A stretch of 64,000 nt of DNA from Liolophura sinensis (taxonomy: Eukaryota; Mollusca; Polyplacophora; Chitonida; Chitonidae). Below the pieces are notes generated by a model. It made no database searches and was not told where the DNA came from. It was given only the letters and a program-made list of their open reading frames with translations. The stretch lies in the NCBI RefSeq assembly GCF_032854445.1, contig NC_088304.1:14149704-14213703 (forward strand), given 5' to 3'. Both the position numbers and the translations under genes were made by a program. Shown here piece by piece: positions 4,531 to 60,728 of this stretch (positions are counted from its first letter, which is position 1; each line of letters begins with the position of its first letter).

Positions 4531-4825
4531 CTTCTGTCCTAAACTATATTCCTCTTGAGAGAAAAGAAGCAGGTAAATTTACGTTTTTCTTCTGTCCTAA
4601 ACTATATTCCTCTTGAGAGAAAAGAAGCAGGTAAATTTACGTTTTTCTTCTGTCCTAAAACTATATTCCTCTTGAGAGAAAAGAAGCAGGTAAATTTACG
4701 TTTTTCTTCTGTCCTAAACTGTATTCCTCGTGAGAGAAAAGAAGCAGGTAAATTTACGTTTTTCTTCTGTTCTAAACTATAATCCTCTGAGAGAAAAGAA
4801 GCAGGTAAATTTACGTTTTTCTTTC
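4531..4825 (+). repeat. 58-bp tandem repeat, five copies
   Basis: The unit contains CTTCTGTCCTAAACTATATT and GAAAAGAAGCAGGTAAATTT. The first two copies start at 4531 and 4589, giving a 58-base period. Each unit carries GCAGGTAAAT, a good match to an animal 5' splice site. The period is not a multiple of three, so the open frame through it is not evidence of a protein. Confidence 0.9.
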
Positions 4826-18983: not shown

Positions 18984-21900
18984 GGACGTGGAAAGTTACG
19001 TCAGTAAATTCACAAACCCAGCAGATGTTTAAGCAGACAGAGCCAGCAGAATTGTCGTGGAATATGCTAGAAGCTTGGTAACGGTTCACCAGTAGTGAGA
19101 TAGTGGCATGCGACTAATGAGTTTTTTGATTCACAGGCATCCCAGATATAATCCTCGCCTTGGGGGATCAGGATGTTGATGTAGGTTCTATGGTGACCTT
19201 GAGATGTCAAGGAACTGGTGTCCCCAACCCTGAGGTCACATGGTATGCAGGGAGCAATGCTCTGACAGAAACAGCATATTTTAAACCATCGTTTGACGGG
19301 AAAACTGCTGAGCTGGTCATCACTGAGGTATTCCCAGATGATGAGCAATTGTACCGATGTGTGTTCAGGAATTGTCATGGATCTGCAGAGACAAGCTGTA
19401 ACCTCACTGTCACAGGTTAGTCACATGAATAACCTCACTGACACAGGTCAGTCACACGAGTAACCTCACTGACACAGGTCAGTCACGCGAGTAACCTCAC
19501 TGACACAGGTCAGTCACACGAGTAACCTCACTGACACAAGTCAGTCACACGAGTAACCTCACTGACACAGGTCAGTCACATGAGTAACCTCACTGACACA
19601 GATCAGTCACATGAGTAACGTCACCGTTGTATGTCAGTTGAATTAGTAAGGTTAAATCAGTTACTGTTGACTATTCAAAGAGTTGATTTATCAAGCTCAT
19701 TTTTAAGCAAATGAAGCTCTATATATTCCTGAAACAAAACCTGAGCCAGACATTTTCATAGCCAGAGCTGTTTTTTTATCCCAAGTTCAGTTTTTACACC
19801 TGAAGGATTAAATGCTTTGTATTAATCATCACTTTCTCAGGTGAAGTCCAGTCCAGGTATTAAGAAATACATGTATGCACTGAGAAACCTGAAGTACAAA
19901 ACTGTCAGTTTTCATTACTGAAATGGAATTCTTTGGATCCCTTTTGTAGGTTGAAGAGCAATGCTATTGAATATGGGACTTGACTACTGCCCGGCTTAAT
20001 TCTTACATTCATGTAGACAGGCATTTGAGCTTTATGCCTTTCCAAGTGCAATGCCATTGTGTTGGACTTCCATAAGTGTGACTACAATGCGCCTTTGGTG
20101 TCATTTTGAAGCAAAACGCCATTTGTATGCAGACAGTTTGTTGTCCCTTTAGCATGGCTTTCTTTGCATACAGTCTTGCCTTCGCAAAAAGGCGTTGTTA
20201 CAGGGAAGTAAGTACCTTAAACTATTACTTTTGGTGCTGGAACCTTAGACTTTTTCCAGTAGAATAACATTCTACCTTCCAAACAAACCTCAAAACAGAT
20301 TTCTAAACTCTAAGATTATAAAACTCCCAGTCTGAGAATTGGGCAAAAAATGTGCAACTTAGTCAGACGTAAAATTTTGGATCATTTATGGTAAATATTA
20401 TGCACAGATTTGCAGACCTGTTTATGGTCTGTTGGACACTTGTAATAAAATAAATGTGAGGTATGCAATTATAGAAGTATAAAATCGATACAGATTGTCA
20501 TTACAAATAAAAAAGATTTGCTTGTTATAGTTGAGCAGTTTTCACCAACTCATAGAATACCCATAAATTTGCCATGATTCTCGTGAATTGGCGTGTGAAA
20601 GCTTCCCATTTAATTAGCATAATGGTTAATTAGCATATGGAACTTTCTCCAGAGGCGCTTAATGGTTATCTTTTGTACTCATTTTAATCCGACTGGACAT
20701 TATTAAAGATTCCTGAGCTGAAATCCTAGCATCAGTGCAAGTCAGTTTAATACCACATCTACTTCATGTATTTTACCCATGTTGGGGCGTATTTTATTTA
20801 TGTTCAGTCTACAGAGGCAAACGTCGAACATTTCCCATGAATCTTAGCAGTTTGTCATTGTAATAATATGTTAATCATTTCTTTATTGGTTCATCCAGAA
20901 CCATACTTTTCTTCCACTCATAAACCTGATCACTGTCACATAACTGTAAAATTCTTGAAAATGTGGAAACACCCATCAATTAATCAATCCAATAGTCAAT
21001 CCAAAAGCAGATAATATATCGGCAGTGTGAGGTTAAATAAGTATTATTCATTCAAAAACTAAATTATTCTATGAAACCTGCACCTAAACTTGCCTTATAT
21101 TAACTTTTAAATCAGAAGATTAACATGCTGAAAAAGTCAAAAGGTGCATTAAGTTGTGATTGGGTTTTTTTTGTGTGATATATTCACAAAAATTTGTGGT
21201 TGCAAGACACAACCATACAATATTGGAAGATAATATCTGTATTAAGAACACAGTTACTTTGAGGAGAATTACCTATATGTATATGTGGGTTTGACTACTG
21301 GGTTAAAGTAAACAAAGGGTTTCCTCACAAAGAAATTTCCTCAAATTTGAAATACATGCACCATCACAATGTGTAGGGTTTAGTCCTGTAAAGTTAAAAA
21401 TTTCACACATTTTGTCTTAAGATATCATTTATGTGGTGGTCAGAATTTTTAATTTCTTGAGCCCCCCTACGCCCCCCCCCCCCCCTTCAAATTGCTTCAA
21501 TTTTTGGCTAAAGTCAGAAATGGCATGGTGAAATCCATCGTTTGTCAGTCACCTGAGAGTTTAATTTCCATGAGAATCTAGTGATATACTCGTAGAAACA
21601 GGTAAACAGTTGGGAAGAGTGCATTTCCATGTGCTGTGGTAAGGTGCAAGTAGAGGTATACTGTAGCCAGGTATGCTAAAAAAATTCACCTACACAGACA
21701 GTAGTTTAATGAACAGGTAACAGGTGTGCACTTTCTTAGCACTTTCGTAAAGATCAGGGAAAATTCCCGCCATGCAGTGTCCCACCTGCAGGTCACAACC
21801 ATTTTGTCTTCATTGGTGATAACACAGGGATGTCACACCGGTAGAACTCATTACCTCACCTGTTTGGTAGCCATGGTACAACCAGCCCCCTAGTGGGTCT

Positions 21901-24900
21901 GCCCCTGTCAGGAAGTCCTAGGTGTACACAAACCTGTGTCAGTGATGAGGCTGTTTGACAGGAATTGATGCATATAAAGAAAGACTAAGGCTAGGTCATC
22001 AGGTGTGCACGAATTAACAGTAGACAGGGTGAAGTCAGTATCACTGTATTTTTAGCTGGTATCAGTACATGTATATGTGTCTCTGTTTGCTGGCTGATTG
22101 AAGTGTTCACATCCTGGCTTTCAACATTGGTTATTTAGTTAACAAGGGGCCTGATATATCCACATAACACGGAAATTTATTTTTACTAATTATGTTGTAT
22201 TAGAATGTATTAATAGAACTCCCTTTTTATATCAGAGTAATGAATTAAATATGCAGACATACAGACTGTGTTGTAGTATTTTATATGACATGGTAAATTG
22301 TATGCGTATATATTGTATTTATTTATTTATTTGATTGGTGTTTTACGCTGTACTCAAGAATATTTGACTTATACGACTGTGACCATCATTATGGTGGGAG
22401 GAAACCGGGCAGAGCCTGGGGAAAACCCACGACCATCCACAGGTTGCTGGCAGACCTTCCCACATACGGCCGGAAAGGAAACCAGCATGAGCTGGACTTG
22501 AACTCACAGCAACTGCATTGGTGAGAGACTCCTGGGTCATTACACTGCGCTACCACACTAACCAACTGAGCCACGGAGGCCCCCTTATACATTGTATCAC
22601 TGGATACAATATACATTGTGATAACTATACATGACAGAATAATGTCGTGTGTTCAATTGTGCCAAAAATTTGATATACATATAGTACACATTTTGTTTGT
22701 ACTTTGCATACCTAATTCTTCTAATTTTTGTGACACCTGGTCTGCTCTTTTGAACATATATACATGTAATTAAAGCAGGAATATTTTAGTAGTTTCTTTT
22801 TTCACATGGTTAGGCCATTCATATATTTATTTTTCAAAAATCTTTCAAGAGAAATTTTATTTCTTTGCTTTCAGAACTAGTAATATCTGTTCTAAAATGA
22901 GAAAAATTAGGGTATAACTTCAGAATTGTACATGCATGTACACTCATCTGCTTTCACGATCGGGATAGAACCAAAATAAGGTTGATGGTTTAGGTTGTGG
23001 GTTTCCCCCTGGGGCTCTGCCTGATTTCCTCCCATCACTTAATACATGCGTTTGTAAGTGAAATTTTGGCATAAAGACACCAGTCAGATAAATACTAAAT
23101 TGAAGGTTTAAATCTCAATCAAACAAATGAGTACAGCATAAAACACCAATCAAGTAAATAAATCAAAGCAATCGAACAAATAAACATAGCATCTTTAGGT
23201 TGCGCAAACTATTTCATAGGAACAGATTGACTCTGAAGTACGCCGTGATATACAGCATGCGCATAGACGTACCAGACCATTGTGTCTGATATAACAGCCA
23301 CAGATTTGATGGACTTGACATTTCCATGACATTTGCATGACGGCTACTGCCAGACGCAGACCATCTAGCAGTCTAGTGCAGTCTAGCAGTCTAGATTGGG
23401 TATTGTTAGTGAAAGGACATGCACGTTCAGATTCGGGATTTATTTCTCAAATTGCTGTTGACACCTGACTAGAGGAATGTTAATCTGCATCTCACATGTG
23501 GCTGCAGTGTGTCCTGTCATCATAGCGACAGTGCTGCAAAGCTTTCTGAAGGTCTGAGCTACGATCAATGCAGTGTATTTAAAACCATGATAGTGCTTTA
23601 ATACGCAAAGTGGATTGACTTCAGGTTGTAATTTCTGTTGGCCTGGCTGTTGTCTTTTGGTCTGGCAGTTACATGTAAACAGATTCTAAATTGAAAACAA
23701 ACGAACAATCTATAAAGAATGCAAATATTAAAAACAACCTCCCCCCTCCAACCCCCAAAGAAAATATGTGTTTAGCAAAAAGAGCTGTGTGAAAGGAAAA
23801 TTGATACAGAAAGATGGTCAGAATGTCAAAAATGTTAAAACCCTTTAATACAAGATATGTAAAATAGGTAATTTACCGTACATGTAACTATGCATTTCAG
23901 CATCAAGGATATTTACATTATAAAAGTGATAAATAAATGAAAAAAAAAAACAAAATCTTAGGACCAGTGTATATGTATATCTATCTAAATACATGTACTT
24001 AGTTTAGAAATATGGACATGTAATTGTCCAGGAAGAGGCACAGGAAGTAGTGGATGTATTAGTGGACGTATTAGGGGACGTATTGATGGACGTATTAGGG
24101 GACGTATTCGGGGACGTATTGGTGGACGTATCAGTGGACGTAGTAATGGACGTATCAGTGGACGTATCAGTGGACGTAGTAGTGGACGTATCAGTGGACA
24201 TAGTAGTGGACGTATCAGTGGACGTATCAGTGGACATAGTAGTGGACGTATCAGTGGACGTAGTAGTGGACATATTAGTGGATGTGGACGTATTAGTGGA
24301 CATATTGGTGGACGTATTAGTGGATGTTGTAGTGGACGTATTAGGGGATGTAGTAGAGTAATGGACGTAGTAGGGACGTAGTGGTGGACGTAGTAGTGGA
24401 CATATGAGTGGACGTAGTAGTGGACGTATCAGTGGACGTATCAGTGGACATATCAGTGGACATAGTAGTGGACGTATCAGTGGACGTATCAGTGGACGTA
24501 TTAGCTGTGTATTCAGAAGCATATAATTCACATGTCCCTCTTGGTCTTGTTCAATTCCCCTTGTTTCTGTTCAGGTCTTGTTGTTCAGTCACTGTGTTCT
24601 TGATCTGTTCCCGTTGTTCACTTTGCCTTGTTCAGCTCTCATGGTTTTTGTTCATTTTGACTTGTACTGTTTGAGACCCTCTTTGTTTTTGTTTGTGCAG
24701 TACCTTTTTGTTTAGTTAAGTTCCCCCTTGCTCTTCAGTCCCCCCTTTCTCTTGTTCAGTTCTCCTTGATTCCTTTTGTATGTCTGTTCTTTTCAGTTCA
24801 CCCATGCTCTTGTTCCTTAGCGCCTTGTTCTTTAGTTCCCCCTTTTTCCTGTTCAGTTTTTTCTTGTTCTTCAGTTCTTCCTTCAGCCAGCAGCCTGCGA

Positions 24901-43400: not shown

Positions 43401-46400
43401 AACTGAGTGCACTTAATGCATCCTCAGCCCATTCAGTGAGTCCGGAGCGGTAGATCCAGGGTCAGTCCTGGGGGAGTCACACATAGACTTTAAAAGAGGA
43501 AGTTGTAACTAACTTCCTCGCTTGGCGTTCAGCATGAAGGGGATAGTGCAACAACCGGTTGCCCCGCATCAGTATAATGGCTTGGGCGGTGTGGCTTACT
43601 TGCCTCTGATAGGTCGTCTCAGTGAAGCAGCACTAGATAAAAGAACGGTGGAAATCCGTCCTGCAACAAGGCACCTTACATGCACTCTAAGGATTTCCAT
43701 GTCGTCATATGACTTAAAAATTGATTACTTTGATGTTAAACCCCAATCACTCACTCACTCACTCACTCACTGACATAACTGTGGTCCTGGGTCATCAGCT
43801 GAATGACAAGTTCTGTGGTTTTGTTTCAACTTGTGCTGGTTGGCTCCATCTATAAACCCAACTGTAGTTGATGTACATTATACATGGACAATATATATAA
43901 GAAGACTTGCATTGTTGTATTGTTGTTGACTGTGCTGGTGTTGACAGTGCCGGATTTGACAGTGCTGGCGTTGACTGTGCTGGTGTTGACTGTGCTGATG
44001 TTGACAGTGTTGGCGTTGACAGTGCTGGTGTTGACCGTGCTGGTGTTGACTGTTGGTGTGGACTGTGCTGGTTTTGATGGTGTTGACTGTTGGTGTTGAT
44101 GGTGCTGGCATTGACTGTGTTGATAGTGCTGGTATTGAATGTGTTGATGGTGCTGGTGGTGACGGTGTTGGTGTTGAATGTTCTTGTTTTGGTGGTTCTG
44201 GCATTGGCTGTGTTGGTGTTGACTCTGCTGGTGTTGACTGTTGGTGTTGTCTGTGCTGGTGTTGACTGTGTTGGTGTTGACTGTGCTGGCGTTGATTGTG
44301 CTGGTGTTGACTGTGCTGGTGTTGAGAGTGTTGTCGTTGACAGTGTTGGTGTTGACTGTGCTGGTTAACCTTTATTTAATGATTGATTAATAACAGCTAC
44401 AAGTTGAATGTGCTGGTGTTGGTGTTGACTGTGCTGGTGTTGACAGTGCCGGTGTTGACAGTGCTGGCGTTGATTGTGCTGGTGTTGACTGTGCTGGTGT
44501 TGAGAGTGTTGTCGTTGACAGTGTTGGTGTTGACTGTGTTGGTGTTGACTGTGCTGGTTTTGATAGTATTGACTGTTGGTGCCGGCGTTAACTGTGTTGA
44601 TGGTGACAGTGTTGGTGTTGACTGTTCTGGTTTTTATGGTGCTGGTGTTGACTTGGTGTTGTCTGTGCTGGTGTTGACTGTGTTGGTGTTGACTATATTG
44701 GTGTTGATGGTGCTCACGTTGACTGCTGATGTTGACTTCTGGTTTTGATGGTGCTGGTGTTGACTGTTGGTGTTGACGGTGCTCTTTTTGACTCTGGTGG
44801 TGTTGATGGGGCTGGTGTTGACTGCTAGTTTTGATGGTCCTGGTGTTGAATGTGCTAGTGTTGACTGTGCTGGTGTTGATAGTGCTGGTGTTGACAATGT
44901 TGATGTCAACTGTGTTGGTGTTGACTCTGGTGGTTTTGATGGTGCTGGTGTTGACAGTGTTGGTGTTGACTGTGCTGGTTTTGATGGTGCTGGTGTTGAC
45001 TGTGTTGGTGTTGATGGTGCTGGTTTTGACAGTGTTCATTTGTGTGCTGCAAAAACAGCTGATATGGGTTAAATATTTGTAGCTACACGTACTGTAGCCA
45101 ATGTTAGGATACAACAGCTTCGTCTGAGAAAAAGAAATAAGTGTCGCCAAAGAAGCTTTGATGTCATCATTAGCGGATCTCTGTTGTGATCATAGTTTGT
45201 TTTCTTCTCCCCTTTGGAGATGTATGGTATTCAGTCACTACCATTTCCCTTAAATGTAATATCCATTACCATTTCCTTTACATATAATATAATATTCACT
45301 ACCATTTCCCTTAAATGTAATATCCATTACCATTTCCTTTACGTATAATATAATATTCATTACCATTTCCCTGAAATGTAATATCCATTACCATTTCCTT
45401 TACATATAATATAATATTCACTACCATTTCCCTTAAATGTAATATCCATTACCATTTCCTTTACATATAATATAATATTCACTACCATTTCTCTTAAATG
45501 TAATATCCATTACCATTTCCTTTACATATAATATAATATTCACTACCATTTCCCTTAAATGTAATATCCATTACCATTTCCTTTACGTATAATATAATAT
45601 TCATTACCATTTCCCTTAAATGTAATATCCGTTACCATTTCCTTTACATTTAATATAATATTCACTACCATTTCCCTTAAATGTAATATCCATTACCATT
45701 TCCTTTACATATAATATAATATTCATTACCATTTCCCTTAAATGTAATATCCATTACCATTTCCTTTACATTTTATATAATATTCACTACCATTTCCCTT
45801 AAATATAATATTCAGCTGTGACATATTGTGACATTTTAGCCACTGTAGTTTGTGATATGATAATAAATACTGTTTTTTCTTGTGAGATTAAGATTTCTTG
45901 TGTCTCTGCTGTAATTATGGTGGATTATTTTGACATTAACTGTTGTCAATAATTCTGGATGCAATTGTAAAAATTTAATAGGGTTGAAGTTTCCTGTTAA
46001 CATTGTGTGTTAATAGACAGAAATCAATAGCATAACCCTGTGAGTTTCAGTCCATGCTGGCTTTTTGTCCAGCCATAAGTGGGAAGGTCTGTCAGCAACC
46101 TGTTGATGGTCATGGATTACCTGCCGGGCTCTGCTCGGTTTCCTCTTGCCATAATGCGCCGTTGTATAAGTGAAATGTTTTTGAGCATGCTGTAAAACAC
46201 CAGTCAGATGAATAAGTGAATAAATAACTTGCGACCTGCTACAAGCTGGTGCAAATACATGGACATTGAAGTATGTGGGTGTATTAATGAAGTGAAATGG
46301 TTCTAGGAGAAAACATTATTCAGTGTGAAAGTAACCATTTTTTTAGTCGGTAACTTTGGTTAGTGTTGCATGTGCCATGCTGTTCTAAGCTTTCAGCCAG

Positions 46401-49400
46401 CAGAAATACAGAAATACCAGATGAGATCTCTTAAATTAGTCCTGATAGATATTTACGTGAATGATAAACAAAGCTTATTTTATCATCTGACTGCCATTAG
46501 TCCCAAACCCATATCCAACAAAAGTGCGAGAAGGTGGAGCACTTACACTGTGTTTCATGTGGAATTGAATAAAATAAGAACAGACAGGAGATATTAGATA
46601 GGAATATATATACCTACATTTTTGACTTGTTGGTGATCTAGGCAAGCTTGAGCTGAAATGTGGAACAAAAATACATGTTATCGTTGCATTCCTGTGCAAT
46701 CCCCCTCCCCCCTCGACCTTATTTCCCTTAAGCCTCCCACCCTCCACCACCCCAACCCAGTTCCACAATCAGTGTAGCAGTCTGGGAAGGTGTGTTAAAG
46801 TCATCAGTTTTGCTATCCTAGGAGTCTTTCAATAACACAGTGTCCTGATCATTTGCAAGCTTCTTTACTTCTACATTCTTCTGCACAGTGGCTTATTTTA
46901 GACCTGCAGAGTTGTCTGCTCTTGGACTGTTGGAGTTAGACAGACATGTACATCTGACCTGTAATTCTATGAGGTGCACGTTTTTTTTTTGTGACTTAGT
47001 GACTTTGGCTGTTTTAAGTGGATACACTTAAAGTCCACTTAGTAGGTTGAGCAGGGTTATTCTGAGAGGTGCATATATGTAGCAATTATGCTTTCTCCAC
47101 ACTGGTTAATGTGTGTGTGTTTATAAACTTACACAAAAATTTGGTTCTCAGTTTTCACATAATTATACTGCAGTTCTTTGCTGAAAAAGAGAAAGGTTGT
47201 CAGGGTAATTGTAGGCACTCGATTGAGAATGTTTGGATTCGAAATTTTCTGCATGAGGGATGGGTGCCCCAAGTAGAATTCAATTGTCATGAGAGGGGGT
47301 GGTGTCTAGTGGTAAAAATGTAGATAATGAAGAATATGGCCTATCCTCAATTTATGTTAGTTAGGGTTTTATTCTAACTGTTCATGTAAATGCTTAAGTA
47401 GTGGTAAATTAGATGCCCTCTACCAACATGGCTTACATGGCTTATGCAGAAGTAGGTAAAGGAGTGCTGTGATGATAAGGTTATAGGGACTTTCTTTCCC
47501 GAAACAGTTAAACACAAGTTTTCTTCAGAAAAATAACAAAAGTTTACTTCAGATAAGGGCTTCAACAAATAATTTAAGTTTATTTACACACAAGAGTTTG
47601 TATGAATTTGTTAGATTACTGGATTAAAATTTGCTGTCCTCAAAGCTTCTGTGTAAACTGACGTTGTTTTAATGTTGTGTGAAAAAATGATGTATATGTA
47701 TTGTGAAAAAGAATTAATGATTTTATTAAAAGAAAAAGTATGAATATGCCTTCCATTGTGTGTTTCAGAAAGAGTCAGGAGCAGACAGTGGGAGTCAACC
47801 AGCCGTTTCTGACTCTGGGTTTGACTTGTCAACAATCCACAGAGACATCATCATGTCGGCCAAAATACAAGAGATTGAGGATGAGGAGGAGTTACACAAA
47901 ATGGTGAGTTAATGAGGATTGGGGTGAGCGACAGAGAGGGAGAGGTGGGACAAAACCCCAAAATACAGGGATTTAAAATGAGGAGTTACACAAAGTGGTG
48001 AGTTAATGAGGATTGGGGTGAGCGACAGAAAGAGAGAGGTGGGACAAAACCCCAAAATACAGAAGATTGAGGATGAGGAGGAGTTACACAAAATGGTGAG
48101 TTAATGAGGATTGGGGTGAGTGACAGAGAGAGAGAGAGGTGGGACAAAACCCCAAAATACAGGGATTTAAAATGAGGAGTTACACAAAATGGTGAGTTAA
48201 TGAGGATTGTGGTGAGCGACAGAGAGAGAGAGGTGGGACAAAACCCCAAAATACAGTAGATTGAGGATGAGGAGGAGTTACACAAAATGGTGAGTTAATG
48301 AGTATTGGGGTGAGTGACAGAGAGAGAGAGAGAGGTGGGACAAAACCCCAAAATACAGGGATTTAAAATGAGGAGTTACACAAAATGGTGAGTTAATGAG
48401 GATTGGGGTGAGTGACAGAGAGAGAGAGGCGGGACAAAACCCCAAAATACAGGGATTTAAAATGAGGAGTTACACAAAATGGTGAGTTAATGAGGATTGG
48501 GGTGAGCGACAGAGAGAGAGAGGTGGGACAAAACCCCAAAATACAAGAGATTGAGGATGAGGAGGAGTTACACAAAATGGTGAGTTAATGAGGATTGGGG
48601 TGAGTGACAGAGAGAGAGAGGTGGGACAAAACCCCAAAATACAGGAGATTGAGGATGAGGAGGAGTTACACAAAATGGTGAGTTAATGAGGATTGGGGTG
48701 AGTGACAGAGAGAGAGAGAGAGGTGGGACAAAACCCCAAAATACAGGGATTTAAAATGAGGAGTTACACAAAATGGTGAGTTAATGAGGATTGGGGTGAG
48801 CGACAGAGAGAGAGAGGTGGGACAAAACCCCAAAATACAGGAGATTGAGGATGAGGAGGAGTGACACAAAATGGTGAGTTAATGAGTATTGGGGTGAGTG
48901 ACAGAGAGAGAGAGAGGTGGGACAAAACCCCAAAATACAGGGATTTAAAATAAGGAGTTACACAAAATGGTGAGTTAATGAGGATTGGGGTGAGTGACAG
49001 AAAGAGAGAGGTGGGACAAAACCCCAAAATACAGGGATTTAAAATGAGGAGTTACACAAAATGGTGAGTTAATGAGGATTGGGGTGAGCGACAGAGAGAG
49101 AGAGGTGGGACAAAACCCCAAAATACAAGAGATTGAGGATGAGGAGGAGTTACACAAAATGGTGAGTTAATGAGGATTGGGGTGAGTGACAGAGAGAGAG
49201 AGGTGGGACAAAACCCCAAAATACAAGAGATTGAGGATGAGGAGGAGTTACACAAAATGGTGAGTTAATGAGGATTGGGGTGAGCGACAGAGAGAGAGAG
49301 AGAGGTGGGACAAAACCCCAAAATACAGTGATTTAAAATGAGGAGTTACACAAAATGGTGAGTTAATGAGGATTGGGGTGAGCGACAGAGAGAGAGAGGT

Positions 49401-52400
49401 GGGACAAAACCCCAAAATACAAGAGATTGAGGATGAGGAGGAGTGACACAAAATGGTGAGTTAATGAGGATTGGGTGAGCGACAGAGAGAGAGAGAGGTG
49501 GGACAAAACCCCAAAATACAGGGCTTTTAAATGAGAAGTTACACAAAATGATGAGTTAATGAGGATTGGGGTGAGTGACAGAGAGAGAGAGGTGGGACAA
49601 AACCCCAAAATACAGGGATTTAAAGTGAGAAGTTACACAAAATGGTGAGTTAATGAGGATTGGGGCGAGCGACAGAGAGGGAGAGAGAGAGGTGGGACAA
49701 AACCCCAAAATACAGGGATTTAAAATGAGAAGTTACACAAAATGGTGAGTTAATGAGGATTGGGGTGAGTGACAGAAAGAGAGAGGTGGGACAAAACCCC
49801 AAAATACAGGGATTTAAAATGAGGAGTTACACAAAATGGTGAGTTAATGAGGATTGGGGTGAGCGACAGAAAGAGAGAGGTGGGACAAAACCCCAAAATA
49901 CAGTAGATTGAGTATGAAATGCACAAAATGGTGATTACAAACAAGGATTAGGGCCAGAGACAGGTGAGACAAAACCCCAGAATACAGGGCCCGGGATCAC
50001 GAAGAGATTTTAGACTTGAGTCAAAATTTCAAATGACTTTAAAATTGTTATTTCTTACATAACTACGTCAAAATATTGCTTGACAATGTAAATTCACAGT
50101 AAGGTGCTGTAAAACAAATTTGAGCTAAAATAACAGAAAGGATCATACCAAGTATAATGATTGAAATTTTGACTTAAGTTTAAGATTGCTTTGTGATTTC
50201 GGGGCCAGAAGATTGAGGATGGGCTGCACAAAATGGTGAGTACAAACGAGGATTAGGCCCATAAACACAGAGAGAGAGAGAGAGAGACATGTGAGACAAA
50301 AACCCCAAAACATAGGTTGTGGATATAGGAGTTACAAAAAATGGTGAGTCAGTGAAGATTAGGACAAGTGACATACCGAGAAAGAATGGACAAAACCTCA
50401 AAATACTGGGGATTGAGGATGAGGCACTACACAAAAAGGTGAATATACAAGCTAGGATTAGGCAGAGAGAGAGAGAGTGAGTGAGTGAGTGCAAAAGCCC
50501 AAAGTACTGGAGATTGAGGATGAGGTCCAAAAAATGGTGTGGTAACCAGGATCAGGAAGAGAGGAGGTTACCAAAAAATGGTGTGGTAACCAAGGAATTT
50601 GAGGAGGATGATGATTTATAGATAGAATAAATCTTTCTCCAGTGTCGGAGGAGGGAATAGTTTTATGTAAATTTCAAAGATTACCCTACTATATTGGCAG
50701 TCAATTGAGGATAATGTACAGGAAATGGAGAGCCTGAAAAGTACAGGAGAGAAGTAAAATATGCATCATACAGTGGTAAGCATTAGATTTCCAGGTGAAA
50801 CACTTTGTGAATTGAGGTTTTTATACTTCAGTAAGCTATGCAGTTTGCTTGGTAGTGATTGCCTCCCCTTATTTGAGAGGTGGAAATGTAAATAAGCCGG
50901 CCGACATTTCAGGTGTCCTGTGAGTTCACACAGATATGGACAAGCTAAAAGGTGAGATTTTACAGTACTTGCTAGGCTGAATACGCATCTCGCGTTGCCT
51001 GGTCTGTCGCCTCTTAGCCCCGTTAGTTCGCAAAAGCCCCCCACCCTGTCTCGCCTGAGCCTGCGTGAACTCGCGAGATCCCAGAAATGCCGACTCGGCT
51101 CAGATGTATTCTTGTGAACTTGTGCATATGTGTACGCAGGAGTGTATTTGTATATCTCTTCATGGCGCTATACGTGTTGTTCTGTTATTTTTAAAAACAT
51201 TCAAATATTTTATCATTGGTTTTATTTACAGTTGAACACAACAGATAATTTTGAAGACAGAAAAATGATCCGTGCTAGATTAAAGGAACTCCGTGAAAAG
51301 GCCAGAGGTGAGAAAAAGCATTTTTTCCCAGCACTATTAATATGGCATATAAACATACATTCCAATATATGTCATATACCTGTATTAAAGTACATATAAA
51401 GGATTTGACAAATTCGGTGCCATTCAAAGTACTGTGCAAAACTGTTCCCAAAATGGATTTCATTTCTGTTTTTAAAGTTTTGATGCATTATTAAAAAGAA
51501 AAAATTTAAAGAAGGATAGATTTTTTACACCATTGCTTTCTTAATTCATGATCATAATTATTTCCCTTTGTGTACTGAAGATGGTTTTTACTGACTCAAA
51601 ACTATGTGAAAAACTTTTGGAAAATATAGTTTCCAAAGATCCACCTAAGAAAATAATTGATTTGTGTGGAAATGTTTAAAAACAATTTGAAGTATTCTTG
51701 GACACAGTTTGAAGTTACCTTGCGTTTGAGGCACACATTATGTTCGACTTTATGTGTACACTTTAACATCATAATCACATAATAATCACATGTACAGGAT
51801 TATTTATGCCTTATTATTAAACTATAAACAATGTATTCTAACTCACTCTTAATTATATATGGTATAACATCTGGCTTTTTATTTATATTATAGAGATCTG
51901 CAATTAATAATTTACACATATATTTTTTCAATTAATCAATATATCTTTTACAATTGCTGATTAGGTGAGTATAATCTTGCACCAACCTTACACCTGGCAA
52001 AAGTATAATGTATTGGTGATTGGGCATTACTTTACTATCATGGATGTGTATTACAAAGTTATTTTCAGGATTCAAGGTTTACTGAAAATTTAGCCAATAT
52101 AGAAAACCTAGCAGCTTGTAAGTTTTGCCCCCATAATCCTAGCAAAATAGCATTTGGTCGTGGAAAGGTGAGCAATTTTGGAAATCAGTGTGGACACTAT
52201 TGCAGCAGCTGCCCACGATCATTTTTTTTAGCCGTAATGCGCCAGTGAAGTAATTAATGTCGATTTACAGAGGAATGGGAAAGGGGTAGGAAAGAGCGGG
52301 AAGCTGCCGCAGTAGATGTAGTGAAATTACGCCAACAACGAGCAGAAGAGGACAAGAAGAGGAAAATGCAGTCTTTTCAGACGCGTGCTGAAACGGCGGG

Positions 52401-58400: not shown

Positions 58401-60728
58401 AAATGGACTAACCCGGTGAGAAAAGAGAAACTGTGTCTTCCTGTTGCAAGTAGATGCATACCGACTAAAAAGCACAGAGCAGATGTCACAAAAATTATGT
58501 TCAACATTAATTCATTTATTTCCAGATTTTCGTTTTCAGAAGGCAGATGACAAATGTTTCCCCTAAACGATTATGTATATATAATTATATAGAAACTGTA
58601 CAGTTAATTTAATTTAAATTCGCGCACATTTTTGTGTAATGTTTGCATGAATGCTGCTCATTATAGAAAATTTTCTTCTCCAGCGCCCTTGTAACTGTCT
58701 CATTGGCCAAGAAAGCTGCGACCACGATGCGACGCAACGCAGTTCAAATTAAAGCTGAGATTTTAGACTTTTGTAAATCCAACACAGCTGAGTACAAGGT
58801 ACAATTCATACACGTGTATTTTGAGAAAGTGATTTTTTCCAGGCATTGAGCTCTTGCTCTTGTAGTCTCCTCATTTCAAGGCAGAAGGGATCTCATTCTG
58901 CATTTTGGAGGACTCATTTTTGTAATTATATTTTTGCTGGAATCTCTTATTTTTCTTTATATCACAGATTTGCATGATTGTATCAATCATAAAGCCTCTT
59001 GTTCTTGAGGATTTGTCTGTGATGTTTGGTTAGGCGATGTTTGGTCTCCATTCGCCTGAAGGGTGATGGGAAACAGAGAGAGACATCTCTTGGGTCCATT
59101 TTTGGAGAGATAATCTTATGTCCTCCTCGGCATCATATGAGACTTTTGCCATGATGTTACAATCAATCTACGTTCTATAGTATTTGGTGGGTTGTCATGT
59201 TGGTCTGGAAATTTGTGGTGTATCAGATGCTATCAAATTGACAGTGAAGTAATATAATGAAAGACTTACATCGCAGAGAGTAAAACCAGAGCAACAACGA
59301 CAGTGCGATAGTTGGCACAATGTCACACCTAACCCGTTGAATTACGACCGCTTGTCAATTTACTGTTAGCAACACCTACCAAAGGAAGCTAGCATGGCTG
59401 GCTAGCACATTTAAACAAGAACTTTACTAGTATTTACGTTATGAGCGATATCACACCCAGTACCGTCATCCTGTGGAAGTTGAATAGAAATTCTTTTCTT
59501 GCCTTATCCTTGTACTGCATACTGACTTTTTGTTTGCACCTTTTCAGCCTTTCATTGCACAATATTTCATTCCACAGCTGTCAAGTTTGTGTGAGAACCT
59601 ACAGAACTATAAGCTGTGGACTTTTGTATTGTCTGTTTTGTTTTGTCCTATTTTCAGAGCCTCTGATTTATCTGTTTTCCTATTCTATTATTCTGTTTGT
59701 TCCCTTCACATTTTGCTGTGGAAACACAACACTGAACTGGTGTTAAACTCCAAAATATGGACATAAAATTTTCTAAATTTCAAAGAACATATGTTAAATA
59801 TATGGATTTACTGGTTTTGTTTTCAAGGTTTCAGAAATGATTTATGCATGTAAAAATTTGGAAATGTTTATGCTCCAGTTCGTTGTGTCACAGCTAACTT
59901 GTAATTAAAAACATTGTCTTCTGTTTACCTTGTTTTTTCTCGATGTTTTGTTTGGAATACATGGATACAAGAAAGTGCTAAATATGTAAATTTTCTTGAT
60001 CCATTCTTTTTGTTTTATTGCTCTTCTAGCCCCCAAACAACTGGGTGTCATGTTGTTATGTCAAAATAACTTCATAAAATATTGAAAAACAAAAAAGAAC
60101 AAAAAAACCTGTAAGAAAATACATCCAGCTTTCTTACAGATTGAAATGTACAGTTGATTATTAAGCAGTAATTATTATGAAAGTATTATTTTGCCTAAAT
60201 ATTAAATAATATTTGTGAATCTTTTCCCCTTAGTTTAACTTAAGTAATGGAATAAGTTTTAAAGGTATATCCATTTTCACATTAGAAACATTTCAGGAAC
60301 TTTGAACATGTCCTGTTCCAAAGAAATTATTGCTGCCATCGTTTGTAAATCCATTTGACCCAGCTCTTCAATGTCATAGCCTAAATAAACAAAACCGAAA
60401 TAAACTACATTTAGACCATTTTTAATTTTAATGATAAGGAGTTATTTTGGTACATCAACTTTAATACCCTTTTGTGCAAAAGCATCCCCAACTACTGGTA
60501 TATCCTGTTATAAGTGACTATTTTGATCTCCTCCACTTAACCTACCCTGTGAACTTGTAATGGACTTTCCTCCTCTATACTCCCTGCCGTGTTGCTAGAT
60601 GGGGAGGTGGCAGTGCGGGCGGCGCCACTGCAGGAGGCGGTGGGGGTGGTAGTAAAGTGGTACGCAACCCCAGTGCTATCAAACAGATGTTACTCGATTG
60701 GTGCAAAGCCATGACAGCTGAATACGAG
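10108..60728 (+). CDS. SMTN-like: Smoothelin-like gene with Ig domains, overall locus (3' end beyond the window)
   Basis: This is the whole gene as far as it is visible; the exons are listed separately. Domain order is: short basic N-terminus, long disordered Ser/Lys region, 19-residue repeat region, three Ig I-set domains, linker, smoothelin domain ([10 protein letters not shown] joined to [20 protein letters not shown]), Lys/Glu-rich helix, Thr-rich linker, and the first helix of a CH domain ([19 protein letters not shown]). Vertebrate smoothelin has the same C-terminal order, with IEDE..LDKML followed by FEERKLIRAALRELR and a CH domain starting IKQMLLDWC. Smoothelins bind actin filaments in contractile cells, and Ig I-set domains are typical of sarcomeric and palladin-like proteins, so a muscle cytoskeletal role is inferred. 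Exon phases agree at every junction except around 27064-27626. The CH domain and stop codon continue beyond 64000. Confidence 0.88.
10227..10494 (+). mobile_element. SINE-1 copy, full length
   Basis: It runs from GGGGCCTCCATCGCTCAGGT through GTGAGTTCAAGTCCAGCTC to AAACACCAATCAAATAAATA. It begins about 80 bases after the exon 1 donor. Confidence 0.9.
10944..11090. repeat. Foldback element with about 54-base arms
   Basis: The left arm starts AGTAACTCC and contains GACGATCTCA and TTTAATTAAG. The right arm holds the reverse complements CTTAATTAAA, TGAGATCGTC and GGAGTTACT. The loop of about 40 bases contains CCTCCTCTGAGG. This is a typical MITE-like foldback with no coding content. Confidence 0.8.
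12150..12194. repeat. (AT)n / (TATG)n microsatellite
   Basis: A pure TA run is followed by short TATG repeats. Confidence 0.95.
12776..12902 (-). mobile_element. MITE-A copy 4, fragment
   Basis: The reversed core GGCCAATCCAACCAACAT is followed by GTGCGAAAAGGTTGAATAAT and TAGGGTAA. The other half is not recognisable. Confidence 0.65.
13249..13462 (+). mobile_element. MITE-A copy 5
   Basis: The left end is CCCTAATTCCTCAAAATCTT, the core CTACATTGGTTGGATCAG, and the right end CATGCGAAAGGGTTGAAGAA. This copy and the one at 58196 are the most complete of the family. Confidence 0.75.
13650..14839 (+). CDS. SMTN-like: Exon 2: long Ser/Lys-rich disordered region
   Basis: The acceptor is TTTCTTTTTAG/C and the donor GATGAG/GTGAGC. 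Entry phase is 1 and exit phase 0, with 396 full codons. The protein is rich in Ser, Lys, Ala and Thr with no folded domain visible. It has a basic first two thirds (for example [27 protein letters not shown]) and an acidic end ([20 protein letters not shown]). Such a stretch suits a flexible, phosphorylatable linker, which is inference. The open frame extends upstream to 13574 with a hydrophobic [14 protein letters not shown], but that part is intron read-through, not a signal peptide. A truncated SINE follows 65 bases after the donor. Confidence 0.85.
14904..15050 (+). mobile_element. SINE-1, 5'-truncated
   Basis: It starts within the body at GTGGAAAGGTCTGTCAGC and ends at ACACCAATCAAATAAATGAA. 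It lacks the tRNA-like head. Confidence 0.85.
15626..16079. mobile_element. MITE-B copy 1 (about 450 bp, long terminal inverted repeats)
   Basis: The left end contains ACCAAAATGAAGTAAGTATC and GATGAAAG. The right end is CTTTCATC, TATACTTCATTTTAGAG, TGGTCTTTGCCTTTAA, so the ends form inverted repeats of about 45 bases. A second copy lies at 62475-62950 and shares the interior, for example CACATAAGGTTTTAGC and ATGAATGCATTCGCTGATTT. No transposase frame is present, so it is non-autonomous. Confidence 0.8.
16148..16196 (+). CDS. SMTN-like: Exon 3: 49-nt exon
   Basis: The acceptor is TTTCTCTTTCAG and the donor GACAG/GTATTT. It encodes [16 protein letters not shown], entering in phase 0 after exon 2 and leaving in phase 1 into exon 4. 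Both junctions agree, which is the main evidence for so short an exon. The sequence is acidic with two cysteines and no recognised motif. Because 49 is not a multiple of three, skipping it would shift the frame, so it should be constitutive. Confidence 0.75.
17700..17780 (+). mobile_element. SINE-2 (CACT-tailed) 3' fragment
   Basis: GTCGTATGACTGAAAAATTG, then GACGTTGAACCCCAATCACT and (CACT)n, match the ends at 1895 and 43435. Confidence 0.7.
17808..17962 (-). mobile_element. SINE-1 fragment adjacent to the exon 4 acceptor
   Basis: The reversed tail TTTATTTGTTTGATTAGTGG, body GGTGGGAGGAAACTAAC and GGATTTGAACTCACAGCG are recognisable. Internal deletions are present. Confidence 0.75.
18009..18590 (+). 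CDS. SMTN-like: Exon 4: acidic region with a 19-residue repeat
   Basis: The acceptor is GTTTGTAG/AT and the donor AGAAG/GTACGA, phase 1 to phase 1, 194 codons. The first third is acidic ([35 protein letters not shown]). At 18266-18439 three units of 19-20 residues follow one another: [38 protein letters not shown], and [20 protein letters not shown]. Conserved positions are an (L)TP/S, a Gly, an aromatic or Val, an Asp and a final Thr. I do not recognise this as a named domain; alternating hydrophobic positions suggest beta hairpins. The Thr/Arg pattern resembles the Thr-rich stretch encoded at 55453-55593. No signal peptide or membrane segment is present. Confidence 0.85.
18591..19136 (+). 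other. Intron 4
   Basis: It is dominated by an (AT)n microsatellite at 18876-18979. Open frames across that run are artefacts. Confidence 0.8.
18876..18979. repeat. (AT)n microsatellite
   Basis: A long TA run with a few ATAC interruptions at its left end. Confidence 0.97.
19137..19415 (+). CDS. SMTN-like: Exon 5: Ig I-set domain 1
   Basis: The acceptor is TTGATTCACAG/GC and the donor CACAG/GTTAGT, phase 1 to 1, 93 codons. This is one complete Ig module on one exon, the usual layout for muscle Ig domains. The core residues are visible: first Cys in VTLRCQG, Trp in VTWYAG, and second Cys in LYRCVFRN, preceded by an acidic FPDDEQ turn. The closing strand is SCNLTVT. The nearest family is the I-set found in titin, palladin and related proteins; the fold is clear, the binding partner is not. 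Its 3' end and donor are tandemly repeated in the following intron (19394-19618). Confidence 0.92.
19394..19618 (+). repeat. 31-bp tandem repeat derived from the exon 5 3' end and donor, about seven copies
   Basis: The unit reads AACCTCACTGACACAGGTCA then GTCACACGAGT. The first copy is the true exon 5 end, AACCTCACTGTCACAG/GTTAGT. Every later unit therefore has a donor-like CACAG/GTCAGT. In the exon frame the first intronic codon is TAG, so use of a later donor would truncate the protein. Confidence 0.92.
22317..22582 (-). mobile_element. SINE-1 copy, full length
   Basis: The reverse complement runs from GGGGCCTCCGTGGCTCAGTT through GTGAGTTCAAGTCCAGCTC to CACCAATCAAATAAATAAAT. Confidence 0.9.
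22981..23164 (+). mobile_element. SINE-1 fragments (body plus a separate tail)
   Basis: 22981-23096 carries GGTTGTGGGTTTCCCCCTGG and a decayed tail. 23131-23164 is a second tail, GTACAGCATAAAACACCAAT followed by CAAGTAAATAAAT. Confidence 0.65.
24040..24510. repeat. 12-bp minisatellite (GTGGACGTATCA-like)
   Basis: Units of GTGGACGTAKYA repeat for about 470 bases, with 9- to 12-base variants. Long open frames on both strands (VDVSVDV-like and TSTDTST-like) are repeat translations. Confidence 0.93.
24530..25500. repeat. Degenerate pyrimidine-rich repeat (CTTGTTCAGTTC-like)
   Basis: Variants of TTGTTCAGTTCACCCTTGTT recur irregularly for nearly 1 kb. A SINE-1 body/tail fragment interrupts it at 24885-25005. 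The plus-strand open frame at 25042-25542 is low complexity and not a gene. Confidence 0.75.
24885..25005 (+). mobile_element. SINE-1, 5'-truncated
   Basis: CCAGCAGCCTGCGAATGGTC, CTCCCACCATAATGCTGG and GAGTACGGAGTAAAACATCA, followed by a TAAATAAATAAA tail. Confidence 0.85.
25641..25928 (+). CDS. SMTN-like: Exon 6: Ig I-set domain 2
   Basis: The acceptor is TTTTGCTTGCAG/CA and the donor CACAA/GTAAGT, phase 1 to 1, 96 codons. A complete Ig module: first Cys in [10 protein letters not shown], Trp in EIFWHKEG, the I-set signature [13 protein letters not shown] with the second Cys, and a closing CQLLVT strand. It is preceded by a short linker, [18 protein letters not shown]. The DxGxYxC motif is canonical, so this is the best-formed of the three Ig domains. 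Its phase lets it be added or removed as a module without breaking the frame. Confidence 0.93.
25929..26845 (+). other. Intron 6
   Basis: It includes a decayed reversed SINE-1 piece near 26428-26500, a run of 14 G at 26592-26605 and a foldback element (26654-26797) ending 48 bases before exon 7. Confidence 0.65.
26654..26797. repeat. Foldback element beside the exon 7 acceptor
   Basis: The left arm GGCCTATTTCACAAAACTTC and the right arm GAAGTTTTGTGAAACTGGTC are reverse complements apart from a few bases. The interior is about 90 bases and has no coding content. Confidence 0.75.
26846..27134 (+). CDS. SMTN-like: Exon 7: Ig I-set domain 3, with an apparent +1 frameshift
   Basis: The acceptor is TTGATTTCCAG/TT and the donor GTTAAAT/GTAAGA. 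Core residues are present: first Cys in KLMCRISG, Trp in VSWYHEG, and [13 protein letters not shown] before the second Cys strand. As written, the frame then runs into TGA at 27118. Reading with one base fewer in the five-G run at 27064-27068 gives [19 protein letters not shown], a perfect Ig ending, and restores donor phase 1. Length is 289 nt where the neighbouring Ig exons are multiples of three. This is either an assembly error or a real disrupting indel. Confidence 0.85.
27379..27923 (+). CDS. SMTN-like: Exon 8: disordered linker, with two compensating frame breaks
   Basis: The acceptor is GTTAATTTCAG/CT and the donor CCCAAG/GTATGT. Total length (545) fits entry in phase 1 and exit in phase 0, and the exit joins exon 9 in frame. 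Inside, the entry frame stops at TGA 27441. The +1 frame is open to 27626 and reads like protein ([20 protein letters not shown]). From the C tract at about 27567-27580 the entry frame resumes ([37 protein letters not shown]). One extra base before 27441 and one missing base in the C-rich stretch would reconcile it. No domain was recognised. An alternative is a short unrecognised intron ending at CCCCCACAG. Confidence 0.6.
28908..28945 (+). mobile_element. SINE-1 body remnant
   Basis: Only GGAACCTGCGGATGGTTGTG and a few following bases remain. Confidence 0.5.
29283..29512 (+). mobile_element. SINE-1, lacking the extreme 5' head
   Basis: It starts at AATGACCCAGGAGTCTCTCA and ends at AACACCAATCAAATAAATAA, with little divergence from the consensus. 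Confidence 0.9.
30201..30262 (-). mobile_element. SINE-1 tail fragment
   Basis: GTGTTTTACGCCGTACTCAA and GAATATTTCAC, reversed, are followed by a short piece of body. Confidence 0.7.
31201..31284 (+). ncRNA. 84-nt near-perfect hairpin, possible pre-miRNA or foldback element
   Basis: The left arm is TTCCAACTGCAGTTTCAAAC continuing CTCATGTAATTTTCA. The right arm TGAAAATAACATGAAG continuing TTTGAAACTGCAAGTGGAA pairs with it over about 35 positions with few mismatches. The loop is about 10 bases. Size and shape fit an animal miRNA precursor in an intron, but no mature sequence was recognised, and a small foldback repeat would look the same. Confidence 0.4.
31361..31480. repeat. (TATC)n then (AT)n microsatellite
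   Basis: A CTAT tetranucleotide run passes into a long TA run. Confidence 0.97.
34154..34177. repeat. (GT)n microsatellite
   Basis: A pure TG run of about twelve units. Confidence 0.95.
35245..35500. repeat. 34-bp tandem repeat, about seven copies
   Basis: The unit reads TTTAATTTAATTGGCATTTG then AAATTGGCTTCACC. Copies are moderately diverged and some have lost a few bases. Confidence 0.9.
35877..36045. repeat. Foldback element (CCCAGTTG...CAACTGGCCC ends)
   Basis: The left end CCCAGTTGTTCAGAAGTGTA and the right end TACGCTTTTGAGCAACTGGC are near reverse complements. The pairing continues inward to CTTAAGCC and GGCTTAA. The interior is about 90 bases. Confidence 0.8.
36095..36200. repeat. 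AT-rich 33-bp tandem repeat, three copies
   Basis: The unit contains ACGGTAATGTAATATGTAAT and AAATAATAAT. Confidence 0.85.
39268..39331 (+). mobile_element. SINE-1 tail fragment
   Basis: GTACTGTAAGTGAAATATTC then GAGTACGCCGTAAAACATCA; it abuts a foldback element on its right. Confidence 0.75.
39332..39511. repeat. Foldback element with about 28-base arms
   Basis: The left end AAGGAATACAGAATTGATTC and the right end GATTCTGTATCCTT, with TGATTGGCT opposite AGCCAATCA, are inverted repeats. There is no coding interior. Confidence 0.8.
40193..40286 (+). repeat. 47-bp direct repeat, two copies
   Basis: GGGTCCTAGGATTGGGCTTT starts at 40193 and again at 40240, continuing to ATAATGTGCAAGGGAT in both. 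Confidence 0.9.
40558..40757 (-). mobile_element. MITE-A copy 6
   Basis: Reverse orientation: AACTCTTCAGACTTGTCGCA, then CTGAAGGCATTATTCTGTGT, GGGCAATCCAACCATTGTAC, and the end GTGAAAAGGTTGAAAATTGG. Confidence 0.7.
40915..41155 (-). mobile_element. SINE-1 copy, diverged
   Basis: The reversed tail AATTGGTGTTTTATGCCTTA, then CAGGTTGCTGACAGACCTTC and GAGCTGGACTTGAACTCGCA. The head is eroded. Confidence 0.8.
41345..41660 (+). repeat. GC-richer patch, possible unclassified tRNA-headed element
   Basis: The stretch contains GTGGGTTCGAATCATATAAC, which resembles a pol III B box, followed by about 200 bases richer in G and C than their surroundings. There is no second copy in the window, so element status is unproven. 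The open frame across it lacks splice-site support. Confidence 0.25.
43435..43772 (+). mobile_element. SINE-2 (CACT-tailed), longest copy
   Basis: It spans GTCCGGAGCGGTAGATCCAG, AATGGCTTGGGCGGTGTGGC and CTTACATGCACTCTAAGGAT. The end is ATGTTAAACCCCAATCACTC and a (CACT)n run. Its 3' end matches 1895-1986 and 17700-17780. Confidence 0.75.
43922..45045. repeat. 15-bp minisatellite (GTGCTGGTGTTGACT), about 1.1 kb
   Basis: Many variants of GTGCTGGTGTTGACT repeat, with a short non-repeat gap near 44365-44400. The 15-base period keeps frames open on both strands, producing false ORFs such as [10 protein letters not shown] and its antisense QHQHSQHQH. Confidence 0.95.
45233..45816. repeat. 61-bp tandem repeat, about nine copies
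   Basis: The unit reads ACCATTTCCCTTAAATGTAA, TATCCATTACCATTTCCTTT, ACATATAATATAATATTCACT. Copies at 45301 and 45362 give the period. There is little divergence, so the array is young or homogenised. Confidence 0.95.
46040..46232 (+). mobile_element. SINE-1, 5'-truncated and diverged
   Basis: GTGAGTTTCAGTCCATGCTG, GGAAGGTCTGTCAGCAACCT and a tail AAAACACCAGTCAGATGAAT. Confidence 0.85.
47769..47903 (+). CDS. SMTN-like: Exon 9: start of the smoothelin domain
   Basis: The acceptor is TGTGTTTCAG/AA and the donor AAAATG/GTGAGT, phase 0 to 0, 45 codons. The first half is a Ser/Asp linker ([20 protein letters not shown]). The end, [15 protein letters not shown], aligns with the start of the last smoothelin domain of vertebrate SMTN (IEDE..LDKML), and the domain continues in exon 10. 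The last 43 bases of this exon and about 55 bases of intron form the unit of the large array that follows. Using any later array copy as donor would read Val-Ser-stop after this exon, cutting off the smoothelin and CH domains. Confidence 0.93.
47861..49945 (+). repeat. Exon-end/5'-splice-site tandem array (units of 92-102 bp, about 20 copies)
   Basis: Each unit has GAGTTACACAAAATGGTGAG, TTAATGAGGATTGGGGTGAG, a GA-rich run and GGGACAAAACCCCAAAATAC. The first unit is the real exon 9 end. Type A units keep the exon text GATTGAGGATGAGGAGGAG; type B units have GGATTTAAAATGAGGAG. From 48388 the order B-B-A-A-B-A occurs twice, about 582 bases apart, which shows a six-unit higher-order duplication. 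Minus-strand frames across it ([13 protein letters not shown]-like) are artefacts. Decayed units continue to about 50600. Confidence 0.95.
49987..50207. repeat. Foldback element inserted in the array's decayed end
   Basis: The left arm GGGATCACGAAGAGATTTTA with GAGTCAAAATTTCAA pairs with the right arm TTGAAATTTTGACTTAAGTT and TTTGTGATTTCGGGGCC. The arms are about 45 bases and the interior about 130. Confidence 0.8.
50208..50600 (+). repeat. Decayed units of the exon 9 donor array
   Basis: Diverged copies persist: GCACAAAATGGTGAGTACAA, AAAAAATGGTGAGTCAGTG and AAAATGGTGTGGTAACC, along with GA-rich runs. Confidence 0.75.
51232..51307 (+). CDS. SMTN-like: Exon 10: smoothelin domain core
   Basis: The acceptor is TTTTATTTACAG and the donor CCAGAG/GTGAGA, phase 0 to 1. 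It encodes [25 protein letters not shown]. Vertebrate smoothelin has LDQSTDFEERKLIRAALREL at this place, so the family assignment rests most firmly here. The pattern F-E-x-R-x-x-I-R-x-x-L-x-x-L-R is an amphipathic basic helix. Skipping this exon would shift the frame. Confidence 0.95.
51308..52270 (+). other. Intron 10, nothing recognised
   Basis: AT-rich, with no repeat family member or extra exon seen. Confidence 0.7.
52271..52570 (+). CDS. SMTN-like: Exon 11: charged helical region after the smoothelin domain
   Basis: The acceptor is CGATTTACAG/AG and the donor CCACAG/GTTAGT, phase 1 to 1, 100 codons. The first 75 residues are Lys/Glu/Arg/Gln-rich ([40 protein letters not shown]) and should form a long single helix or coiled coil. 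The end is Ser/Thr-rich ([16 protein letters not shown]). Vertebrate smoothelin has a comparable charged helix (RDKERERR region) followed by a Thr/Ser stretch. It can be skipped without breaking the frame. Confidence 0.92.
52571..53481 (+). other. Intron 11, nothing recognised
   Basis: A short G run lies near 52950. No repeat family member or exon was seen. Confidence 0.7.
53482..53583 (+). CDS. SMTN-like: Exon 12: Thr/Gly/Pro linker
   Basis: The acceptor is CCCCTTTCTAG/AC and the donor AAGCCTG/GTAAAT, phase 1 to 1, 34 codons. It encodes [20 protein letters not shown] then [13 protein letters not shown]. This is a flexible linker with no domain. The local GC content is higher than in the introns. 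Being phase-symmetric it may be an optional cassette. Confidence 0.85.
53584..55452 (+). other. Intron 12
   Basis: AT-rich. A short hairpin is centred near 54950 (TTGTCCTAAATT opposite AATTTAGGACAA, about 54928-54975). No exon or SINE was recognised. Confidence 0.65.
55453..55593 (+). CDS. SMTN-like: Exon 13: Thr-rich linker
   Basis: The acceptor is TTTATCGTCTAG/AT and the donor TGGGGAG/GTAGAA, phase 1 to 1, 47 codons. It encodes [20 protein letters not shown] then [20 protein letters not shown] and ETTQRWG. The [18 protein letters not shown] pattern resembles the Thr/Arg strand-like stretch between the last smoothelin domain and the CH domain of vertebrate SMTN, and the repeat units in exon 4. 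The function is unknown. Confidence 0.88.
55594..56907 (+). other. Intron 13
   Basis: It holds one SINE-1 fragment (56150-56316). Nothing else was recognised. Confidence 0.7.
56150..56316 (+). mobile_element. SINE-1, 5'-truncated
   Basis: GGAAAGGTCTGCCAGCAACC, GTTTCCTCCCACCACAATGC and the tail ATAAACACCAATCAAATAAA; about a dozen bases before the tail are deleted. Confidence 0.85.
56908..56989 (+). CDS. SMTN-like: Exon 14: linker before the CH domain
   Basis: The acceptor is TTTACTGTTAG/CT and the donor ACCAAA/GTAAGT, entering in phase 1 and leaving in phase 2. It encodes [20 protein letters not shown] then PGAAKP plus AA of the next codon. The sequence corresponds in place to the Ala/Pro/Lys linker just upstream of the smoothelin CH domain (vertebrate RKAMIEKLEKEGAAG region). 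The phase-2 donor can join either of the two following CH-start exons. Confidence 0.9.
56990..58683 (+). other. Intron 14
   Basis: It contains MITE-A copy 7 (58196-58400). Nothing else was recognised. Confidence 0.7.
58196..58400 (+). mobile_element. MITE-A copy 7, best copy
   Basis: The left end is TACCCTAATTCTTCAACCTT, the core CTACATTGGTTGGATTGG, and the right end GTGCGAAAAGGTTGAAGAAT. The terminal inverted repeats are about 25 bases. There is no transposase. Confidence 0.85.
58684..58798 (+). CDS. SMTN-like: Exon 15a: alternative start of the CH domain
   Basis: The acceptor is TTCTTCTCCAG/CG and the donor TACAAG/GTACAA, phase 2 to 0. With AA from exon 14 it encodes [20 protein letters not shown] then [19 protein letters not shown]. 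The last 20 residues match the first helix of the smoothelin CH domain (IK..LLDWC pattern), with Phe replacing the usual Trp. Exon 15b at 60599 encodes the same helix with the same phases. If both were spliced together, exon 15b would be read in the wrong frame and hit a stop, so the two appear mutually exclusive. The linker here is basic and non-repetitive, unlike the glycine-rich one in 15b. Confidence 0.88.
58799..60598 (+). other. Intron between the alternative CH-start exons
   Basis: About 1.8 kb with no repeat family member recognised. If the flanking exons are mutually exclusive, control elements such as competing RNA stems could lie here; none was identified by eye. Confidence 0.6.
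60599..60728 (+). CDS. SMTN-like: Exon 15b: alternative start of the CH domain, canonical smoothelin form
   Basis: The acceptor is CCGTGTTGCTAG/AT and the donor TACGAG/GTATCG, phase 2 to 0. With AA from exon 14 it encodes a glycine-rich linker ([20 protein letters not shown]) and then [33 protein letters not shown] is the exact start of the CH domain in vertebrate smoothelins ([18 protein letters not shown]). The CH domain binds actin-related partners or calmodulin in SMTN-family proteins; only its first helix is in this window. The GC-rich linker stands out against the AT-rich surroundings. Confidence 0.93.

Follow-up and report, generated by a model that had tools for sequence, protein, structure and literature searches.

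A minisatellite spanning a 5' splice site in a smoothelin-CH gene of the chiton Liolophura sinensis looks like an ordinary unstable repeat begun at an exon edge

In a stretch of 64,000 nucleotides from the genome of the chiton Liolophura sinensis (hereafter the window; positions 14149704-14213703 of contig C10, in an assembly of 609,464,459 bases and 632 contigs), the last 44 nt of a coding exon, its 5' splice site (the donor) and the beginning of the following intron are repeated in tandem. The exon belongs to a gene that encodes a Smoothelin domain and, further downstream, a CH domain. The array has the look of an ordinary unstable repeat, begun by chance at an exon edge, rather than of a demonstrated splicing switch: with a probability of roughly 85%, it is a neutral minisatellite of the type described in amphioxus under the name of 'mirages', with the first donor being used for splicing. 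Its origin would lie in a tandem duplication across the exon-intron boundary, followed by growth and homogenisation through repeated duplication, including the copying, once, of a block of six units; slippage or unequal exchange would be the plausible routes for this growth. Splicing would then take place at the first donor, which adjoins the real exon and is most likely the one used. As all sequence past the first donor is in that case intron, the extra copies would be tolerated and the array as a whole would be neutral.

The exon in question (47769..47903; like all features given below it lies on the + strand) comprises 45 codons in phase 0. Taken alone, it yields a weak match to positions 10-26 of the Smoothelin profile (PF12510; E 0.086), which is below the curated cut-off. 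The next coding exon (51232..51307) carries the second half of the domain, and the open frame in which it lies matches positions 27-49 with an E of 0.00032, just under that cut-off. When the two exons are joined, however, the match extends over positions 10-49 and rises over the cut-off (E 7.2e-12). Judged by this joined match, the exon at 47769-47903 is genuine and its joining to the exon at 51232 completes the Smoothelin domain, which bears out the premise of an earlier note on this DNA that a real exon stands at the start of the array. As the two halves of Smoothelin are contiguous across the two exons, the array sits in an intron that splits the domain. The authentic 5' splice site is GTGAGT at 47904..47909 (ATG/GTGAGT, the slash marking the boundary), as indicated both by the sequence and by the Smoothelin profile, which runs on without a gap in the next exon.

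The array itself was delineated by Tandem Repeats Finder (TRF), which places it at 47860-49903, with periods of 94, 98 and 196 bp, about 21 copies and a score of up to 3374, and by cutting the sequence at CCAAAATACA, which results in 22 units: 21 young units of 94-102 bp, constituting the homogeneous array (47860..49892), and one degenerate unit. Unit 1 consists of the 44 nt of the exon end (47860-47903) and 54 nt of the intron start, i.e. the repeat spans the exon-intron boundary, and units 2-21 are identical to this exon unit at 87-99% of the compared positions. The young units come in two types, nine long, exon-like ones and 12 short ones with TTTAAA or TTTTAAA. A block of six units is moreover duplicated: its first copy (48348..48929) and the stretch compared as its second (48930..49511, the last unit of which ends at 49510) are the same at 572 of 583 aligned positions. 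The earlier note had counted about 20 repeats and had seen the order B-B-A-A-B-A twice at a distance of about 582 bases; if its types A and B are taken as the long and the short units, both observations stand, the distance being 582 bp. It was also right in recognising an amplified exon edge with its donor, but the exon part measures 44 rather than 43 nt, the intron part, put at about 55 bases, is 54 nt in unit 1, and of the proposed span of 47861..50600 only the portion up to 49892 is clean array, with 49893-50600 lying outside it. In a whole-genome DNA search, in which only top-ranking candidates receive a score and highly frequent words are passed over, 12 matches were obtained, every one of them within the array or its decayed end.

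The differences between individual units and the presence of a distinct six-unit block also bear on the question of whether a short duplication was simply inflated by misassembly. Assemblers struggle with tandem arrays and can get their copy number wrong, and the coverage is given as 14X (PMC11068029); however, the mean length of the HiFi reads is given in the same source as 8,347 bp, exceeding the approximately 2 kb of the array, and we hold such an artefact to be highly improbable.

While homogeneous inside, the array is divergent at its boundary. Unit 22 (49893..49984) is degenerate, with its donor reading GTGATT and 65 of 82 compared positions matching the exon unit, and decayed copies lie beyond it: about 390 bp of older units (50211..50600) have kept GTGAGT at 50236 and 50344 and lost it in the later ones. 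Amid these old copies lies a palindromic fold-back element of 226 bp (49985..50210), similar to miniature inverted-repeat transposable elements (MITEs), whose ends are strongly and whose middle is weakly self-complementary. It recurs at 81-85% identity in at least 39 other places of the genome, among 40 scored of 1769 first-look candidates.

Within the young array the donor is widely preserved. GTGAGT is intact in 20 of the 21 young units, counting the true donor, with the sequence at 49551 reading ATGATGAGT instead. The exact ATG/GTGAGT, which had been ascribed to every copy, is found in 19 of the 21 and fails in two, the unit at 47998 having GTG/GTGAGT. Translation past the first donor reads M-V-S-stop, in agreement with the earlier expectation that the use of any distal donor would add Val-Ser-stop. 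The accompanying claim that such use would remove the downstream domains holds entirely for CH and in part for Smoothelin: as the halves of the profile lie in two exons, it is the second half that would be lost. Among the eight long copies other than the exon itself, three have in-frame stops, one has a missense change and four keep the peptide of the exon; each of the 12 short copies lacks 4 nt and is thereby frame-shifted, and 11 of them have a TAA in the frame of the donor. A coding role for the copies was rejected on the strength of the in-frame stops in three of these eight long copies. We likewise consider it exceedingly improbable that the copies serve as cassette mini-exons of 33 nt, extending from ACAG to ATG and inserting 11-residue repeats in frame: although a segment of this length is indeed in frame in some long units, the stops and the out-of-frame short copies speak against it, as does the lack of a clear pyrimidine tract ahead of ACAG, as judged by eye.

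Most units additionally hold two further donor-like sites, which the earlier note had overlooked, and in at least 10 units GGG/GTGAGTGA is predicted to out-pair the copy of the true donor with U1 (-11.2 versus -9.2 kcal/mol), these statements pertaining to the best 60 of 202 GT sites. Together with the 20 units with intact GTGAGT, these sites would suit a splicing regulator, in which the donor copies compete with the true donor or bind U1 in a copy-number-dependent manner, resulting in Val-Ser-stop transcripts that would lose the second half of Smoothelin and the CH domain. Such a role appears quite improbable to us, as one donor of the young array is broken and the distal donors are decayed, splicing is reported to be normal in amphioxus genes whose arrays share this anatomy (PMC3087553, PMC3902484), and the donor bases are without extra conservation. 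With regard to the last point, the 21 young units (with unit 22, the block that differs between long and short units, the GA tract and gapped columns dropped from the count) have variable sites at two of nine donor positions as against eight of 61 others (Fisher p 0.61). Of 46 windows of nine columns, those overlapping the donor included, 42 have as many variable sites as the donor or fewer. Thus, no sign of a selected function was found by this comparison, which is a weak test with low power because the units are young and alike.

A precedent for an array of this kind is presented by the mirages of amphioxus, which are minisatellite-like tandem copies of an exon-intron boundary, many of them with splice signals, found in Adh3, the globins BflGb6 and BflGb9 and troponin C (PMC3087553). 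They are described at 5' or 3' edges, with units of 10 to 160 bp that are homogenised within the cluster and not at its boundary, and with both length and somatic instability; the mirage of BflGb6 has six and three copies in two haplotypes, and the data on Adh3 along with reverse-transcription PCR of the globins are taken there as a sign that regular splicing goes on undisturbed (PMC3087553). Imperfect repeats of a similar kind in PGBD5 reportedly leave accurate splicing intact (PMC3902484). By its anatomy the chiton array is a member of the mirage kind: its unit spans the exon-intron boundary, is of minisatellite size and is present in multiple copies, many of which have splice signals, and the array is homogeneous inside and divergent at the cluster boundary. 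It differs from the amphioxus mirages in its 21 young copies, as opposed to the six and three of BflGb6, in its duplicated six-unit block and in the mobile element among its old copies. Human segmental duplications, too, contain variable internal tandem repeats at exon-intron boundaries (PMC2812944). These are again minisatellites at such a boundary, but whereas they are reported to be tied to novel introns and changed proteins, the chiton array lengthens an existing intron. Narrow term searches of the open-licence literature recovered no molluscan exon-edge minisatellite.

A second donor-spanning array, overlooked in the earlier note, is apparently located in the same gene. It is found at an immunoglobulin (Ig) exon of the I-set type on the same strand (19137..19415; I-set 4.5e-19 for the open frame 19130-19417), which ends in GTCACAG/GTTAGT. 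The array (19398..19624, as recognised by TRF and from the sequence) has seven copies, including the exon's own, of a 31-bp unit that combines the last 18 nt of this exon with the first 13 nt of the intron; of the six downstream copies, four read CAG/GTCAGT, one CAA/GTCAGT and one CAG/ATCAGT. That both donor arrays act as length-variable U1-binding platforms tuning the output of full-length smoothelin-CH protein is, in our estimate, very unlikely. Exon-edge minisatellites, known from amphioxus and human genes, would with these two be extended to a mollusc, apparently with both in one gene. With its row of approximately 20 near-identical donors, the larger array would also offer a neat experiment of nature on the way in which the spliceosome chooses the first among many equal donors.

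Of the readings offered by the earlier note, that of a neutral minisatellite fits best, in view of the lack of donor conservation (in a weak test), the stops in three of the eight long copies, the distal decay and the precedents, but several points weigh against it. The first is the very persistence of GTGAGT in 20 of the 21 young units, and the second the youth and likeness of the units, which weaken the conservation test. The third comes from human IFI6, which resembles the chiton case in having a minisatellite at an exon's donor with donors inside the repeats, its unit reportedly being 12 bp. The repeat units of IFI6 are said to act as donors (PMC4526556), and hence repeat donors can be used, which also favours the splicing regulator; in the chiton, unlike in IFI6, the use of a distal copy would give a stop. 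The fourth concerns placement: with the second array at the Ig exon, two of the 12 arrays entered in a placement test start no more than 60 bp upstream of a donor, and two or more such arrays arise in 1.1% of joint shifts and 0.7% under independent placement, the test being post hoc and several of its 15 exon limits being estimates.

The last point raises the prospect that in this genome exon ends give rise to arrays repeatedly, with something about the 5' end of introns promoting amplification across or beside the donor. This concerns the origin of the repeat and is compatible with its neutrality, and we regard it as rather unlikely. It would account for the pair of arrays that span donors in what is apparently a single gene, for which the probability under random placement is about 0.01 (again post hoc), and for minisatellites on L038 (82-305) and L062 (687-806) that start approximately 8-12 nt past a likely donor, with the donor itself excluded. 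However, when the count takes in every exon edge that falls within an array, the chance mean is 1.6 and 48% of random shifts reach two. Further, no spanning repeat was found in a sample of 34 other Ig exons, which provided 34 acceptors and 33 donors (one donor, without a clear site, was dropped) and whose edges were guessed by a simple rule; the window's remaining 13 donors and its 15 listed acceptors were likewise free of one. Nor do array units have an excess of donor motifs: among 66 minisatellites with units of at least 20 bp, 13 strand-units contain a strong donor, against a shuffled mean of 12.7. Minisatellites are in any case common on this contig, where 68 rows remained after merging, 11 of them from the window and 57 from 209,297 bases elsewhere on C10.

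Other arrays in the window include one at 4529-4823, with five copies of a 58 bp unit containing AAGCAG/GTAAAT, where an exon could not be shown, and two long arrays of short units, at 43924-45034 (15 bp, about 76 copies) and 24048-24504 (12 bp, about 38 copies). Downstream of the Smoothelin exons, two exons that look like alternatives to one another, ~58684-58798 and ~60598-60728, code for the beginning of the CH domain and give CH matches of 2.9e-17 and 3.1e-19, respectively, each when joined with an exon outside the window (L009). As a CH match results from joining the next exon to either of them, the pair may be mutually exclusive; they end in ...TAEYK and ...TAEYE, respectively. Elsewhere in the assembly, contig C8 has a row of eight matches to PF14830 (Haemocyan_bet_s), a family of mollusc-type hemocyanin, and a mitochondrial stretch (L030) has the gene order nad3-nad2-cox1-cox2, with cox1 identified by a family search and the other three by eye. 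Moreover, seven cox1 matches lie approximately 15.5 kb apart on contig C99, with an eighth on C632, and the mitochondrial genome is probably assembled, going by this spacing, as a head-to-tail concatemer on C99.

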